39,036 bases of DNA from Methanothrix sp. (GTDB taxonomy: Archaea; Halobacteriota; Methanosarcinia; Methanotrichales; Methanotrichaceae): positions 1 through 39,036 of the forward strand of contig JAPKXZ010000010.1 in the NCBI GenBank assembly GCA_026394555.1. Reading direction: 5' to 3'. The position numbers and the translations under genes were made by a program. Under the pieces are notes generated by a model. That model worked only from the letters and a program-made list of their open reading frames with translations, was not told where the DNA came from and searched no databases. How positions within the stretch are numbered: position 1 is the stretch's first letter; every line of letters starts with the position of its first letter. This document shows positions 616-23,248 of this stretch, piece after piece.

Positions 616-641
616 AACGCTCCCCGCCCTAAAGGACGGGG
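616..641 (-). ncRNA. Right-end hairpin, likely 3' end of the TnpB guide-RNA scaffold
   Basis: On the minus strand a stem CCCCGTCC-TTTA-GGGCGGGG begins inside the last codons of tnpB and is followed by AGCGTTCAC. In characterised TnpB elements the omega RNA overlaps the 3' end of tnpB and stops at the transposon right end, with the guide taken from flanking DNA. Here that guide would come from the IS66 remnant at 612 and below. The assignment by analogy is good, but the 5' end of the RNA cannot be placed. Confidence 0.5.
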
Positions 642-1750
642 CTTCTATCGCTTTTGCGAACAGACTGCATCCCCAGTCTGAGAATGTTGATTGCTGCATT
701 GAGATCTCGGTCCATAGTCAAGCCACATTCCGAGCAGCTGTGGATTCTTTCAGAGAGATCTTTTTTGACTATCATGCCGCACCGTGAACACATCTGAGAA
801 GTGTACTTGGGATCAACCAGGACAACCTTAGAGCCAGCGTATTCTGCTTTGCTCTCGGTTGCTTTTACCAGCATTCCCCATGCAACGTCCGAGATGGATT
901 TTGCCAGGTGATGATTCTTGAGCATGTTCTGAATATCAAGATCTTCAAAGACTATTACGCCGAAACGGTTTACCAATTGGCGACTAACCTGATTGGAGAA
1001 ATCGGTTCTTTTGTCTCCGATTCTTTCATGAATTCTAGCCACCACTTTGGACGCTTTTCGTCTGAGAGAAGATCCTTTAGGAAGCTTATCGCGTTTGCTT
1101 TGTGCTTTGGCTAATGCCAACTCATCTTCTCGGAAGAATCTAGGATTATCAATCTTCTCGCCATTTGAGAGGGTGGCAAAGCTCGCCAAGCCTACATCGA
1201 TTCCTACAACAGATCCATCTTTCCAAGGAGGCCGTGGGATATCTCCCATCTCGGCGGAGAAGCAAGCGAACCATTTACCAGTTGGCATTCTGCGAATAGT
1301 ACAGGTCTTAATCTTACCAACAATTGGCCTATGCAACTTGATCTTGATATATCCAATCTTGGAAAGATGGAGCATTTCAGAATCCAACTCAAAACCAGAT
1401 TGGGAGTACGTGATGCTATCGTATCTACTCTTTCCTTTGAACCTTGGATAACCGGGTTCCTCTCCGGATTTGACTCTTCGGAAGAATGCTTTGAACGCCA
1501 GTTCCACCCTAAGAGCTACATTCTGAAGAACAAGTGAATAGACATCCTTGAGTTCGGGTACCTCCAGCTTCAGTTGAGGTAATCTATCCTGAGTCTCAAA
1601 TCGTTTAACCGTTCTTTGCTCAAGCTCCCACGCATTCTTTCGATATGCAAGCGTATCATTATAGACAAATCTGCAAAGCTCAAGTTGCCGTTCTAAGATC
1701 GTAACCTGAGATTTTGTAGGTTTGAGCCTGTAGCGATACGTTTTAAGCAT
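629..1750 (-). CDS. tnpB: RNA-guided endonuclease TnpB (OrfB, IS200/IS605 family)
   Basis: A full-length 373-residue TnpB with an N-terminal helix-turn-helix region (MLKTYRYRLKPTKSQ). RuvC-like nuclease motifs are intact: D in GIDVGLASFAT (around residue 186), E in FEDLDIQNM (around 270) and D in DRDLNAAINIL near the C-terminus. A four-cysteine zinc finger (CSRCG and CSECG) lies between the last two. TnpB proteins are programmable DNA nucleases that help the transposon persist. The ATG at 1750 is preferred because it gives the usual family start. The ORF ends inside the right-end hairpin. All catalytic residues are present, so it may be active, although transposition would need TnpA supplied from elsewhere. 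Confidence 0.92.
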   Translation of the reverse strand: MLKTYRYRLKPTKSQVTILERQLELCRFVYNDTLAYRKNAWELEQRTVKRFETQDRLPQLKLEVPELKDVYSLVLQNVALRVELAFKAFFRRVKSGEEPGYPRFKGKSRYDSITYSQSGFELDSEMLHLSKIGYIKIKLHRPIVGKIKTCTIRRMPTGKWFACFSAEMGDIPRPPWKDGSVVGIDVGLASFATLSNGEKIDNPRFFREDELALAKAQSKRDKLPKGSSLRRKASKVVARIHERIGDKRTDFSNQVSRQLVNRFGVIVFEDLDIQNMLKNHHLAKSISDVAWGMLVKATESKAEYAGSKVVLVDPKYTSQMCSRCGMIVKKDLSERIHSCSECGLTMDRDLNAAINILRLGMQSVRKSDRSPVL

Positions 1751-2203: not shown

Positions 2204-3445
2204 ATGAGCGCAATATCATTTGAGATCTTAAGGCAGGATAAAGAGACACATGCCAGGCTGGGGCTGATTAAAACCAGACGAGGAGATATAGAAACACCCT
2301 ACCTGGTTCCGGTGGCGACAATGGGCAGCGTGAGGGCTTTGGGCTCCGACGATCTGCACAGTTTAGGCGTGCAGTGCACCCTTGCCAATACCTACCATCT
2401 TCACCTTAATCCGGGCGATGAACTGATCGCAAGGTTCGGTGGGCTGCACCGGTTCATGGGGTTTGACCGACCCATGTTCACCGATTCCGGCGGCTTTCAG
2501 GCATTTTCTTTAGGCTTTGCCAGAGAGCATAACATCAGCAAGATCGGCAACATCTTTCCGCAAGATTACCGGAAAAAATATGATGATAGGGAAGACGAAA
2601 AAGAGATGCCTAAAGCGGCGAATAAGGAGAATTTGACCAAGATCACAGATGAGGGCATCTCCTTCAAGTCCCTTAGCGACGGAGCCTGGCATTTCTTGAA
2701 TGCGGAAAAGTCGATGAAGATTCAATCCAATCTCGGAACAGATATCATCATGGCATTTGATGAATGCACTTCCCCCCTCTCGGATTACGATTACACCAAA
2801 AAAGCCATGCAGAGAACCCATAATTGGGCGGAAGAGTCCATTCGATACCACGATAAAAATCAAGCTCTCTATGGCATAATCCAGGGGGGATGGTTTGATG
2901 ACTTAAGAAAGGAAAGCACACAGGCCATCACTGAAAAGCCTTTTGACGGCATCGCCATTGGAGGCTCGCTGGGGAACAGCAAGCAGGACATGCATCAGGT
3001 CCTGGACTGGACCGTTCCCAGATTGGATGACGACCGGCCGCGCCATCTCTTAGGCATAGGCGAAATCGACGACATATTTGAATGCGTGGCGCGAGGAATA
3101 GATACCTTCGACTGCGTCTCTCCCACCAGAATCGCTCGCCGAGGAAGCCTCTTGCTCTCGCCGCAAGCGGGTGGATCGCAGGAGAACAAGTTTCACATAA
3201 ATATTAAAAATTTACAATTTAAAGAGGACTGCCGGCCCATCGACACCAACTGCTCCTGTTCGACCTGCCGCACCTACTCACGAGCCTACCTTCGCCATCT
3301 TTATGTCTCCCGGGAGCTGTCCTACTTCCGGTTGGCTACTCTTCATAATCTCCATTTTATGCTGCGCTTCATGGAAGAGATCAGGGAAAGCTTAAGAACC
3401 GGGACATTTGCGCAGATGAAAGATAAATGGCTGAAAGAGATTTAG
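2204..3445 (+). CDS. tgt: Bacterial-type tRNA-guanine transglycosylase, probably queuine-using
   Basis: This 413-residue enzyme exchanges guanine at tRNA position 34 for a queuosine precursor. It matches bacterial or eukaryotic TGT, not archaeosine TGT, which is longer and has PUA-type C-terminal domains. Visible features are TDSGGFQ (base D94), IIMAFDEC (D186), GIIQGG (Q227), the nucleophile D303 in DTFDCVSPTR, and a zinc site at C350, C352, C355 and H381. The base-specificity loop reads AIGGSLGNSK. The Val that selects preQ1 in bacterial enzymes is replaced by Gly257, as in the queuine-accepting eukaryotic enzyme. About 35 extra residues lie at 107-145. An AAGGAGG box lies about 20 nt before the ATG, rather far away. 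The transporter gene follows after one base, suggesting co-transcription and queuine salvage. Transfer from bacteria is likely. Confidence 0.9.
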   Translation: MSAISFEILRQDKETHARLGLIKTRRGDIETPYLVPVATMGSVRALGSDDLHSLGVQCTLANTYHLHLNPGDELIARFGGLHRFMGFDRPMFTDSGGFQAFSLGFAREHNISKIGNIFPQDYRKKYDDREDEKEMPKAANKENLTKITDEGISFKSLSDGAWHFLNAEKSMKIQSNLGTDIIMAFDECTSPLSDYDYTKKAMQRTHNWAEESIRYHDKNQALYGIIQGGWFDDLRKESTQAITEKPFDGIAIGGSLGNSKQDMHQVLDWTVPRLDDDRPRHLLGIGEIDDIFECVARGIDTFDCVSPTRIARRGSLLLSPQAGGSQENKFHINIKNLQFKEDCRPIDTNCSCSTCRTYSRAYLRHLYVSRELSYFRLATLHNLHFMLRFMEEIRESLRTGTFAQMKDKWLKEI

Positions 3446-3446
3446 A

Positions 3447-4166
3447 ATGCAGATAAAGACCGAGGGCCAGGACGAATGTGGGGGCCAGAGGACAAAGAGA
3501 AACGATGCCTTCCTGCTCAAGGGTGGTAAATTAGGGCTGGACAGGACCCAGGCCGCCATAATTCTCTCCGGCCTTTACCTCTTCTTCTCCCTGGCAGGCA
3601 ACATTGCCGCCACCAAGGTCACCTACTTCGGCGGCCTGGTCATGGATGCCGGCTTCATTTACTCTCTAACCTTCACCTGGCGCGACCTGATCCATAAGCA
3701 GCTCGGAGAGAAGGCGGCAGTAACCACTATCTGGCTGTCGGCAGCCGTCAACCTGCTCGCCGCACTTTATTTTCAGCTGGTGGTCCTGCTGCCGGCGCAG
3801 ACCGATTGGGCGAATGGCGGAGGGCAGACGGCCTGGGAATTTCTTTTTTCCCTGCAGATGAGGATTGTACTGGCATCCATCCTCACGGCACTAATTGCCG
3901 AGCTGATTGACACGAAGGTCTATCAACTCTGGACACGGGGCGGCAGAGAAAAATGGCCGCAATGGACCCGGGTCTTCGCCTCCAATTCCGTCTCCATTCC
4001 AGTGGACAGTCTGCTCTTTCCCGTCATCGCCTTTGCCGGGGTTGTGGGTGCACAGGGCCTGCAGCAGATGGTCTGGACCAACATCATCGTTAAAGGTCTG
4101 GTCACCGCGCTGGTCTTCTGGACGATCTACCTGGTGCCGGAAAAGCCGATTTACAAGGAGAGCTAA
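3447..4166 (+). CDS. yhhQ: Queuosine-precursor transporter, YhhQ/QPTR (DUF165) family
   Basis: A 239-residue integral membrane protein with about six hydrophobic spans and a hydrophilic N-terminal extension of about 35 residues. Family hallmarks are the early NIAATKV span, the TFTWRDLIHKQLG segment, and SNSVSIPVDSLLFPVIAF near the end. YhhQ proteins import preQ0, preQ1 or queuine. The gene begins one base after the tgt stop codon, so the two are almost certainly translated from one mRNA. Together they form a minimal salvage route: uptake of the free base and its insertion into tRNA. Which base is carried cannot be read from this sequence. The transglycosylase specificity loop favours queuine. 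Confidence 0.87.
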   Translation: MQIKTEGQDECGGQRTKRNDAFLLKGGKLGLDRTQAAIILSGLYLFFSLAGNIAATKVTYFGGLVMDAGFIYSLTFTWRDLIHKQLGEKAAVTTIWLSAAVNLLAALYFQLVVLLPAQTDWANGGGQTAWEFLFSLQMRIVLASILTALIAELIDTKVYQLWTRGGREKWPQWTRVFASNSVSIPVDSLLFPVIAFAGVVGAQGLQQMVWTNIIVKGLVTALVFWTIYLVPEKPIYKES

Positions 4167-4201: not shown

Positions 4202-5263
4202 TTACAGGATTGGTCCAGATAGTCGCACATTATTTACAGTCACAACGCCCTTCGACATACCAGCAGGCACATTCAAGTAAACGTCGTCTTGGTAGTCATA
4301 GACTCCGTTGCCGTTTACATCGAAGAAGCCCATCTTTGTAGTATCTGTGGCCGGTCCAAGGAAGCTCGCCAAGGGTGGCCAAGCCACCAATTTATTTTGA
4401 TCATCGTCAAAATTCGTGACCTTTGTCCCGGCGATCAGCTCACCCATTGAGCTTATTCTGACATCATTGGTTTGGATAAACTGGGCTCTTAGGTCGTATC
4501 CCTTGCGGTCGGCAGATTCATCACCCCGGCGGGGGCCATCCTCCACTCTTTCATGAGGTTGAATCTTGATGAGCCAGGTTCCAAGAACATGATAATAGTC
4601 TGCCTTTAGGCCGCAAACCACTTCAATGGCCAGTCCCCGCAATTCGCCGACTCTCCTTGGTCTTTTATCAAGGATTTTATCTGAAGTAAACAATTTATAA
4701 TTATCTGTAAATAGGACAAAGCCTAATCCCGGGGAAGATATCTCTCTGCCTCTATAGGGAAGACGCTCGCTAAAGCCTGTCATCATATTGGCTGAATTCT
4801 CAGAATCGTCACGATAAGAATAATCGGAATAATCGAAATGATGTAGGTAAACAGGATCATTAAGATCATATGCGCGACTGCCATGAATATCCAGGAAGCT
4901 GATTATCGAAGGCAGCTGCGTTATCGGCTTATTCATATCATAATCATGAAATGTCACCTTTGATCCGGCAGCCATATCATCTAAGAAAGTCAGTCTTACG
5001 TCGTTGGCATTGGTTGTGCCGCTGGCAGAAGGCCCAATGTGCAGATAAACCGGGTCTTCTTCATCATATCCGGGAGTTCCTATATCCCAGAAGGCCACAG
5101 TTGTCTCAGCCGGAAGAGGGAAAAGGGGTCTACCTATATCAGATTGATTCGGCAAGACTTTGCTGCCGAAAGGATAATCCGAACCGCTTGCTGGACTTGC
5201 CATCACGATTATGCTTGCCAATAAAAGTGTCCATATCAAGCTCTTCCTTTCCGGCACAAACAT
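4202..5263 (-). CDS. Secreted protein with duplicated Asp-rich calcium-loop-like repeats
   Basis: A 353-residue protein with a signal peptide (hydrophobic 9-26) and no C-terminal anchor. A unit of about 60 residues occurs at roughly 87-142 and 266-335. Its pattern is NDVR, then AG-KVT-D-D-NK, then SFL, then F-D-x-G-x-YD-x-D-VYL. A third copy of only the FWD-GYDEEDPVYLHI part sits at 56-75. The loop DVNGNGVYDYQDD resembles dockerin or EF-hand calcium loops. A GGAGG box sits eight bases before the ATG at 5263. I do not recognise a named family. A surface or matrix role with calcium binding is inferred from the repeats. It is convergent with yhhQ and stands as a single gene. Confidence 0.65.
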   Translation of the reverse strand: MFVPERKSLIWTLLLASIIVMASPASGSDYPFGSKVLPNQSDIGRPLFPLPAETTVAFWDIGTPGYDEEDPVYLHIGPSASGTTNANDVRLTFLDDMAAGSKVTFHDYDMNKPITQLPSIISFLDIHGSRAYDLNDPVYLHHFDYSDYSYRDDSENSANMMTGFSERLPYRGREISSPGLGFVLFTDNYKLFTSDKILDKRPRRVGELRGLAIEVVCGLKADYYHVLGTWLIKIQPHERVEDGPRRGDESADRKGYDLRAQFIQTNDVRISSMGELIAGTKVTNFDDDQNKLVAWPPLASFLGPATDTTKMGFFDVNGNGVYDYQDDVYLNVPAGMSKGVVTVNNVRLSGPIL

Positions 5264-6130: not shown

Positions 6131-7270
6131 GAGGATTCCTATTTACCCAGGATCAATCGATAGATTCCCTTAAAACGAGCCACAATTGCCGCAATGAGAA
6201 GAAATCTTACCAAATCAGTCTCATTTTTATCTTTATTTTGTCAATTTTTTGATAGCGTCCGCTAGGCTCAAATCACGTTCGCTTTTTTCAATGTGCAGAG
6301 CTGATATAGGTTAAAAGCAAACGCAGTAACCATCATTTTTACGCTAACTCTTCTAATCGTAGTAACCAAAACCCATCCGGAATTAAAAACTCTCTTGATA
6401 ACCGCATGAGGGCGCTCTCCTGGGGATCTCAGTTTGCTAATCAATCGATTTCGTTCCTTGTCAAGTTCCTCCAATGGCTTGTCGGTCGTCCTGCGCTTCA
6501 TCGTAAAATCGATTCCTATGGCCTTTGCTCCAAAGTATCCTCTATCTCTCAAAACTGGTTCGCCTTCAATTGAGAGATCTATCTGACTATCATGCAGCGA
6601 TGCAGTGGTAGTAGCGATTTCGCGTATTAGGGTGTAATCGATATCTGTTTTTTGATGAAGCTTGTAACCGAAATGGGTTTCATCACCTTTCTTTGCCCAT
6701 GTTCCATCTCTGCTGCGACGTGTCATGGCCTCATTACCACGTGGTTTTTTTGAAGATCCATGATCGGCCTCGATAAACGTGGCATCTTGGATCGTTCCGC
6801 GTTTGACCTGCAAACCCATAGCATCCAATTGCCTTTGAAGTTCTGCCCAGATAACTTCGTCCATTCCTGTCTCCGCCATGCGTTCTTTGAATAGCCATAT
6901 CGTCCTGGAATCTGGAGGCGGATTGGGAAAACCAAGAAATGACATAAATGATATGCGATCGGCCATTTGCCTCTCAACTTCCAGATCGTTCAAGCCAAAC
7001 CACTGTTGGAGTATCAGAATTTTGAACATCAGAATAACATCGCAGTTCGGCCTTCCACCTTTCTCGCCCTTATTGTGATACATTTCATCGAGTCTTCGAC
7101 GGATTGGCGTCCAATCGATCAAATCCGATATCTGTGATAATCGAGTCTTCCCCTGTTTCCGGCTAAGTCCCTGAAGTATCCATGTGGTAAAAGAAGCCAT
7201 ACTATATAATAGTAGTAATAGTATATATACTTTTCGATATTAAAAAGACAGTAGGTTTATAGGAATCCTC
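6131..7270 (-). mobile_element. IS5-family insertion sequence, complete, 1140 bp
   Basis: The left end reads GAGGATTCCTATTTACC. The right end, reverse-complemented, reads GAGGATTCCTATAAACC, so 15 of 17 positions match. A 4-bp direct repeat TACG flanks the element on both sides. One transposase gene fills most of it. The intact ends and perfect target duplication point to a recent insertion. It lies between the genes at 5514-6125 and 7288-7749. Removing it leaves only about 18-30 bases between them. Confidence 0.88.
6268..7200 (-). CDS. IS5-family DDE transposase
   Basis: A 310-residue transposase with an N-terminal DUF772-type domain (GGRPNCDVILMFKILILQQW at about 48-67). The DDE catalytic region is visible as DATFIEAD (about 139-146), VLRDRGYFG (about 217-225) and an Arg-rich segment ending in RPHAVIKRVF (about 263-272). 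Length and motifs fit IS5-group enzymes with no frameshift. It should be functional given the intact terminal repeats. The ATG at 7200 lies about 70 bases from the right end. Confidence 0.9.
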   Translation of the reverse strand: MASFTTWILQGLSRKQGKTRLSQISDLIDWTPIRRRLDEMYHNKGEKGGRPNCDVILMFKILILQQWFGLNDLEVERQMADRISFMSFLGFPNPPPDSRTIWLFKERMAETGMDEVIWAELQRQLDAMGLQVKRGTIQDATFIEADHGSSKKPRGNEAMTRRSRDGTWAKKGDETHFGYKLHQKTDIDYTLIREIATTTASLHDSQIDLSIEGEPVLRDRGYFGAKAIGIDFTMKRRTTDKPLEELDKERNRLISKLRSPGERPHAVIKRVFNSGWVLVTTIRRVSVKMMVTAFAFNLYQLCTLKKANVI

Positions 7271-21791: not shown

Positions 21792-23248
21792 GTACGTGTT
21801 TAGCTCCCGATCAATCATTCCTAAATTTACCACAAAATGTTTTTCGACCAGAAAAATTAAATAATATGAGGATAATACTTATTCATTAGGAGTATGCACG
21901 AAGAAGAAACAATCAAGCAACCTCAAGAGCGGATCAAACAATTAGAGCTTGAGAATGAGTTGCTTAAGGCAAGAGTAGGTGAAATTGAGCCGCTTAAGGC
22001 TAAGATCTACGAGCTTGAAGCCCGGTTAGCTCAATATGAGAATGCGCATACCCCACCAAGTCTGAGACGTGGCCGCAATCGCAAAAAAGATCCGGATAAG
22101 AACAACAAAGGAAAGCCCGGACAAAAAAATGGACACAAAGGCGTAACAAGACCTTATGCAGCTCCTGATAGACAGGTAGAAGTCACAATTGATCTATGCC
22201 CAGATTGCGGGGCTGATCTTGGCGCTCCTTTTCGAATAGACTCGAAGATTATCGAGGAAATCCCTGAACCTCAGCCGATCATGGTCACTGGATACAAAAT
22301 TGCGCATTACAGATGTCCCTGCTGCCGGAAAGAAGTTGTTGCAAGCGATCCAGGCTGTCCACATGAAGGCAAATTCGGAAACAACGTAATTGCGCAGGCG
22401 ACAATGTTAAGATATGACGGTAGAATGCCTCACCGGATAATCCAAGACGCAATGATGAGACTGTTCTGTCTGAAAATAAGTCCTGCTACGATACTCGATT
22501 TAACCCGTCGCGCTGCTGATGCGGTTCAATCGGAATATGATGCGATTCTAAAGAAGATTCGAGGCGCTCCGATCCTGTATGTGGATGAAACGTCAATCCA
22601 TGTTCAGGGAGAAAGACATTGGATCTGGACCTTTTCCACATCATCTGAGTCTTTTTTCGTGATTCGGAAGAGCCGAGGCATGAAAGTCCTGACGGAAGTC
22701 TTGACGCGGAGATTCAAGGGAATAATCGTTTGCGACGGTTGGAAACCTTATGCCAGGTTCACAAATCGCATTCAGCGATGTTGGGCACATCTGCTTCGAG
22801 AGTCAAAAGAGATTGCGGAGAAGTTCGAGGAAGCTATTCCGCTACATAACATGCTCAAAGAGCTCTACAAGATACTAACCGAGGCTTTGGAAAATGATCC
22901 ACCGCCAAAAGTCAGAAAGAATTTATGGAAATTGGCGAGAAAAGTGCTTCGGCAATGGATCAGGAAAGTGTATTCTATCGAGAAAGTCCGGAAATTCATA
23001 GGGAAAATCAACAACGGGTTTGACTACTGGTTCACCTTTATCATCAATCCGGGTGTAGAGCCGACCAATAATCGAGCAGAGAGAGCGTTGCGACCCCATG
23101 TCGTTTTGAGAAAGATCTTGGGCACGCTTCGCAATGACAAAGGAACTTCGATTCATGAGCGAATTATGACGACACTGGCAACATGGGGACAGAGAGGATT
23201 GAATTGTCTCCAAATGCTAACCACGAAGCTAGCCAGCTAAACACATAC
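21792..23248 (+). mobile_element. IS66-family insertion sequence, complete, 1457 bp
   Basis: The left end is GTACGTGTTTAGCT (21792-21805). The right end, reverse-complemented, is GTATGTGTTTAGCT (23235-23248), 13 of 14 identical. A perfect 8-bp duplication AAAAAATG flanks the element. Only the large transposase gene is present, as in the single-gene ISBst12-like branch of IS66, with no TnpA or TnpB accessory genes. The intact ends indicate recent movement. Confidence 0.9.
21894..23240 (+). CDS. IS66-family transposase (TnpC type)
   Basis: A 448-residue transposase. An N-terminal leucine-zipper-like coiled coil (about 8-50, ending ARLAQYENAH) is followed by a Lys-rich linker, a zinc-binding segment (CPDCGADLG about 103-111 and CPCCRKEV about 142-149) and the DDE domain. 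Catalytic residues are in LYVDETSIHV (about 230-239), IVCDGWKPYARF (about 278-289) and NNRAERALRP (about 384-393). TTAGGAGT precedes the ATG. The stop codon lies inside the right inverted repeat. The N-terminus is closely related to the remnant at 490-612, so two IS66 lineages have been active here. Confidence 0.93.
   Translation: MHEEETIKQPQERIKQLELENELLKARVGEIEPLKAKIYELEARLAQYENAHTPPSLRRGRNRKKDPDKNNKGKPGQKNGHKGVTRPYAAPDRQVEVTIDLCPDCGADLGAPFRIDSKIIEEIPEPQPIMVTGYKIAHYRCPCCRKEVVASDPGCPHEGKFGNNVIAQATMLRYDGRMPHRIIQDAMMRLFCLKISPATILDLTRRAADAVQSEYDAILKKIRGAPILYVDETSIHVQGERHWIWTFSTSSESFFVIRKSRGMKVLTEVLTRRFKGIIVCDGWKPYARFTNRIQRCWAHLLRESKEIAEKFEEAIPLHNMLKELYKILTEALENDPPPKVRKNLWKLARKVLRQWIRKVYSIEKVRKFIGKINNGFDYWFTFIINPGVEPTNNRAERALRPHVVLRKILGTLRNDKGTSIHERIMTTLATWGQRGLNCLQMLTTKLAS

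Follow-up and report, generated by a model that had tools for sequence, protein, structure and literature searches.

The Locus

Within the window (the whole 39,036-nucleotide stretch of Methanothrix DNA that was analyzed), a gene for a bacterial-type tRNA-guanine(34) transglycosylase (bTGT) is followed on the same strand, after a single base, by a gene for a YhhQ-type queuosine-precursor transporter (QPTR) (Table 1). Archaeal neighbors in the window include genes for a geranylgeranyl reductase, a polyprenyl synthase, an S-layer protein of the Methanosarcinales type and an NrpR domain. Three transposase genes are found within this single 39-kb window. Several Methanothrix loci have, close to the TGT, open reading frames similar to the one for the probably secreted protein beyond the transporter.

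Table 1. Features of the window discussed in the text.
Feature	Position	Strand	Remarks
Transposase, IS605 OrfB/TnpB type	629-1750	-	
bTGT	2204..3445	+	413 aa; ATG..TAG; no PUA domain; TIGR00430
Clade-specific insert of bTGT after Gly104 (residues about 105-142)	2516..2629	+	variable length; predicted disordered
Base-selection loop of bTGT, G253-G-S-L-G-N-S-K-Q-D-M263	2960..2992	+	one residue shorter than GGLAVGE...M
QPTR/YhhQ (COG1738, PF02592)	3447..4166	+	239 aa; TIGR00697 and PF02592
Probably secreted protein	4202-5263	-	353 aa; no Pfam match
Transposase, DDE_Tnp_1 type	6268-7200	-	
Transposase, IS66 type	21894-23240	+	

The Transglycosylase

In profile searches the product of the first gene scored 478 bits with TIGR00430 (Q_tRNA_tgt, cut-off 306.75). 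With TIGR00432, the model for the archaeosine enzyme (arcTGT), it reached 131 bits, below the cut-off of 350. The same genome has a separate arcTGT (599 bits with TIGR00432) and an ArcS (602 bits with NF040592), and the original prediction of a bacterial-type, position-34 TGT in an archaeon stands. The top Foldseek match of an AF2 model of the protein (pLDDT 83.7) is the Z. mobilis TGT, with an E value of 3e-43 and a target-normalised TM of 0.91. The likeness to the E. coli and Z. mobilis enzymes extends to the fold, the three aspartates, the zinc site and the missing PUA domain, at about 40% identity. The catalytic Asp94, Asp186 and Asp300 and the zinc ligands Cys350, Cys352, Cys355 and His381 are invariant in a 36-member alignment of the clade described below; in Z. 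mobilis numbering, Asp102, Asp156, Asp280, C318, C320, C323 and H349 are all kept.

Family membership and the missing PUA domain point to position 34 as the target. Candidate substrates in the genome are tRNA-Asp(GUC), with the anticodon loop C-U33-G34-U35-C, and tRNA-His(GUG). ARAGORN identified neither tRNA-Asn nor tRNA-Tyr in this genome; the longer tRNA matches to which it gave no call probably include both.

The Base-Selection Loop and the Insert

The loop that selects the base reads G253-G254-S255-L256-G257-N258 in the window TGT and has no counterpart of Glu235. In bacterial enzymes and in archaeal ones of the QueA type the loop reads GGLAVGE, GGLSVGE or GGLSIGE. In contrast to the E. 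coli and Z. mobilis bTGTs, members of the clade have a loop one residue shorter that lacks both Val233 and Glu235, an insert of roughly 20 to 100 residues after the Asp102 strand, and no QueA partner. GGSLG, Lys260, Asp262 and Met263 are invariant in all 36 aligned members. In the insert, Glu108, His109, Lys113 and Phe118 are likewise invariant across the clade and lie beside the active-site strand; pLDDT in the AF2 model is below 50 at residues 99-140.

Gly257 had been thought to replace the valine of preQ1 enzymes, and this depends on where the one-residue gap is placed. Val233 aligns with Gly257 if the loop is anchored on the left and with Leu256 if it is anchored on the right. The further comparison with the human queuine enzyme is not supported in the form in which it was put, as there is no position-for-position match: the loop is short and without Glu, and Cys158 is kept. 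Human QTRT1 resembles the window TGT in having Phe at Z. mobilis Tyr106 and, with left anchoring, Gly at Val233, but it has a QTRT2 partner and a full-length loop with Glu. The residue equivalent to Cys158 is Cys188 in the window TGT, whereas human TGT has Val at this position (PMC3660597). GGSLG departs in one position from the published queuine loop motif, GG[LS][AS]G (PMC10723273): the fourth residue is Leu instead of Ala or Ser, and the agreement of the other four speaks for queuine.

With its short loop lacking Glu, its retained Cys158 and an insert bearing invariant residues, the predicted pocket of the clade is neither of the classic preQ1 type nor exactly of the known queuine type. Because the match of Gly257 to Val233 is alignment-dependent and Cys158 is not replaced by Val as in the human enzyme, queuine can be named only as the presumed base. 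The departure from the human and Chlamydia motif, with Leu fourth and no Glu235, counts against it, as does the ambiguous gap. An uncharacterised 7-deazaguanine, or some other large base, could be read by the short loop together with Glu108, His109 and Lys113 of the insert; these clade-invariant elements do differ from those of the characterised enzymes in the comparison, from E. coli, Z. mobilis and human (PMC3660597). Such a base appears quite improbable, since only the TGT and QPTR genes recur in most neighborhoods and no candidate biosynthetic gene was recognised next to the pair.

Distribution and Phylogeny

The TGT is present in 24 of the 26 Methanothrix genomes, with identities of 71-96%; completeness is 79% and 56% for the two genomes that lack it. 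At identities of at least 52%, GGSLG-type enzymes occur in 50 of 393 genomes drawn from the phylum, in families f1, f8, f9 and f29, and one Woesearchaeon also carries the gene (L053). The TGT/QPTR pair thus spans Methanothrix, other Methanotrichaceae, what we take to be the Archaeoglobaceae, two further families and the Woesearchaeon. Pair-bearing genomes presumably include those of M. soehngenii GP6, M. thermoacetophila PT, A. fulgidus, A. sulfaticallidus and Geoglobus acetivorans. In the presumed A. fulgidus genome, the neighbor of the TGT gene resembles PEP carboxylase by eye. Three Methanotrichaceae genomes, G197 and G242 (genus g4) and G352 (genus g6), lack a GGSLG-type TGT, and two of the three have a different QPTR; G242 presumably corresponds to M. 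harundinacea. The arrangement is therefore no peculiarity of one methanogen but belongs to a widespread archaeal clade, and queuosine genes in some archaea are already on record (PMC8204110).

A bacterial-type gene in an archaeon might be a relic or a contaminant with no present role. Conservation refutes this, and the idea deserves next to no credence. The gene is intact, is kept by nearly all congeners and occurs in single-contig genomes, so that contamination and chance were rejected as explanations. It is under purifying selection, with dN/dS values well below 1 (about 0.05-0.16 across TGT pairs).

All sampled GGSLG members form one clade (100/99) in a maximum-likelihood TGT tree. The sister of this clade (99/98) is a TGT of actinobacterial type, which likewise adjoins a QPTR; bacterial sampling in this tree is thin and includes no Chlamydia or Patescibacteria sequences. 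Similar TGTs presumably exist in Patescibacteria, which are known parasites of Methanothrix, and an origin of the gene there was suspected but is not claimed. No relatives were found in the viral contigs scanned.

A second archaeal bTGT type, from families f3, f4 and f5, forms a separate branch of the tree. Like the window TGT it is a position-34 type in archaea, but its loop is GGLSIGE, QueA adjoins the TGT in eight of eight genomes, QueH is present in all eight and QPTR in none. The window clade combines GGSLG with QPTR, and the two archaeal types thus have opposite gene sets. Genomes G217, G267, G361, G367, G388, G391, G408 and G411 (L086-L093) have bTGT, QueA and QueH without a QueF or QPTR that would account for their preQ1. 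Castelle 2021 (PMC8204110) describes QueA, QueH and TGT in 34 archaeal genomes, DPANN and some Methanosarcinales among them, as a synthesis pathway; families f3-f5 would correspond to the Methanosarcinales named there.

The Transporter Partner

The second open reading frame scored 79 bits with TIGR00697 ("queuosine precursor transporter", cut-off 50.95) and 115 bits with PF02592 (cut-off 27.2), in agreement with the YhhQ transporter predicted one base after the TGT. Values of dN/dS are about 0.16-0.20 across transporter pairs. QPTR is the same-strand downstream neighbor in 21 of the 24 TGT-bearing Methanothrix genomes; two of the remaining loci stop at a contig end, and in G024 (L023/L056) there is no adjoining QPTR although the contig runs on. 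Among clade genomes 47 of 48 have a QPTR, the exception being 73% complete, compared with 8 of 20 relatives without bTGT (Fisher p = 2e-7, shared ancestry ignored).

In the QPTR tree the same-strand partners of Methanotrichaceae and f9 form one clade (100/100), and the convergent or unlinked partners of f8, f29 and the Woesearchaeon form a separate one (100/100). A long-branch-join warning for this tree touches deep placement and not these two clades. Members of both come, in this sample, only from genomes with GGSLG-type TGT; QPTRs of relatives without bTGT belong to other subfamilies. Since two distinct QPTR clades each accompany only the GGSLG-type enzyme, the transporter must have been exchanged without loss of the pairing. 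A swapped transporter with lasting pairing, the strongest point of these gene-set comparisons, fits an enzyme dependent on an imported base. Import is the presumed direction, and substrate specificity differs within the family (PMC5372724, PMC10723273).

Archaeosine and Queuosine Genes

Archaeosine is evidently made independently of the pair, because the genome has arcTGT, ArcS and a strong match to QueC. The QueC family (PF06508) is above cut-off in 25 of the 26 Methanothrix genomes. With QueC, the same cell makes preQ0, and the bTGT might place this base, or a derivative of it, at the wobble position, with QPTR as a supplementary source. Bacterial TGT has been crystallized with preQ0 bound (1p0b), and archaeal COG1738 proteins were predicted by Zallot 2017 to salvage preQ0 for archaeosine (PMC5372724). 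This alternative is rather unlikely; endogenous preQ0 would make a tight link to an importer unnecessary, and the QPTRs of relatives lacking bTGT are, as noted, of other subfamilies.

A complete de novo queuosine pathway, which would have spoken against salvage, is not present: QueA, QueF and QueH were sought in the genome and all were absent. QueA is also missing from all 26 Methanothrix genomes and all 48 clade genomes, QueH from the 34 clade genomes tested, and QueF from 43 of 48 clade genomes; the QueF-family match in a few of them counts against queuine salvage. Where QueA is missing, QueG has no known substrate. One Methanothrix QueF-family match (L059, G022:C187) lies beside a second, unrelated QPTR; this locus is perhaps a piece of foreign DNA, perhaps a preQ1/preQ0 unit in its own right. 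No match to the Qng1-type nucleosidase (PF10343) was found in the genome of the window, and only weak partial matches, perhaps cross-matches of DNA glycosylases, in some f8 genomes. With no strong Qng1-type nucleosidase found, free queuine would have to be available outside the cell.

Probable Salvage of an External Base

The Q modification of tRNA is generally said to be missing from archaea. According to Zallot 2017 (PMC5372724), archaea are unable to make Q, a bacterial genome that has tgt alone implies queuine salvage, and TGT34 had never been found in Q-lacking organisms. TGT-only genomes are likewise read as queuine salvagers elsewhere (PMC10723273). For archaea, no paper on salvage by TGT and QPTR was found in the open-licence literature, although the supplement of Castelle 2021 may list part of the set.

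The TGT is accompanied by its own importer and by none of the queuosine-finishing genes tested, and therefore bacterial queuine is probably imported. The QPTR would bring in a finished 7-deazaguanine, most likely queuine released by turnover of bacterial tRNA. The bTGT would exchange this base for guanine-34 of the Asp, Asn, His and Tyr tRNAs, which have GUN anticodons. The exchange would follow the usual covalent route with an Asp nucleophile and yield queuosine in one step, as it does in Chlamydia and eukaryotes. For position 15, archaeosine comes from a separate route by way of the cell's own preQ0, arcTGT and ArcS. That some external 7-deazaguanine is salvaged and exchanged into G34 is very probable. 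A two-gene unit for which that base is queuine is the best explanation and a reasonably probable one. The original suggestion of queuine scavenging is partly upheld, by the missing QueA, QueF and QueH, the conserved QPTR and the Chlamydia-like configuration; from the sequence, queuine, preQ1, preQ0 and another base are all candidates. Salvage by bTGT and QPTR in archaea is a plausible interpretation, with queuine as its presumed substrate.

Chlamydia trachomatis, for which direct salvage is described (Yuan et al. 2019, as cited in PMC10723273), also has bTGT and QPTR without QueA, QueH or QueF. The archaeal system differs in several respects. Its host makes preQ0 and archaeosine, its TGT has GGSLG without Glu235 and an EH...K...F insert, and the TGT clade is conserved in free-living archaea and not in a reduced pathogen.

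Bartonella henselae offers another precedent. With only TGT and QPTR, it prefers preQ1 and has traces of preQ1 in its tRNA (PMC10723273), and E. coli YhhQ carries both preQ0 and preQ1 (PMC5372724). By analogy the archaeal QPTR might import preQ1 (or preQ0) and the TGT insert preQ1 at G34, the pathway stopping there for want of QueA and QueG or QueH. The Cys158 retained in the clade, as in preQ1 enzymes, would agree with this. The Bartonella TGT, however, has the E. coli loop GGLAVG and the clade a shorter GGSLG without Val or Glu; moreover, TGT and QPTR have been kept over many families and a long evolutionary time, unlike the outcome of a recent reduction. Salvage of preQ1 is accordingly considered unlikely.

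If the queuine reading is correct, the wobble base in this archaeal clade, cultured Archaeoglobus and Methanothrix included, would be something other than preQ1-derived Q, namely bacterial queuine. A stronger form, with an undescribed 7-deazaguanine at G34 that is selected by a loop and an insert distinct from those of characterised TGTs, is a doubtful prospect. Bacterial queuine at an archaeal wobble position would make these archaea queuine auxotrophs like eukaryotes. Q-type wobble control would then extend to the third domain, dependent on bacteria as in animals, and the dominant methanogens of anaerobic digesters, together with Archaeoglobales, would be tied to a bacterial micronutrient. 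No chemical evidence of Q in archaeal tRNA was found in the literature, and we know of no report of Q among the tRNA nucleosides of A. fulgidus. Bulk tRNA nucleosides of that organism have been analyzed (cited in PMC6313347).

The sister type of the clade (99/98 in the TGT tree) is represented by Nocardia farcinica (L105). Its TGT resembles the archaeal enzymes in an insert at the same place, a shortened loop and a QPTR next door, which is convergent with the TGT (L105, 2420-4852). It differs in the loop sequence GGALEKHN and a Leu at Cys158, and identity is about 38%. The TGT and QPTR of L105 are likely another salvage pair.
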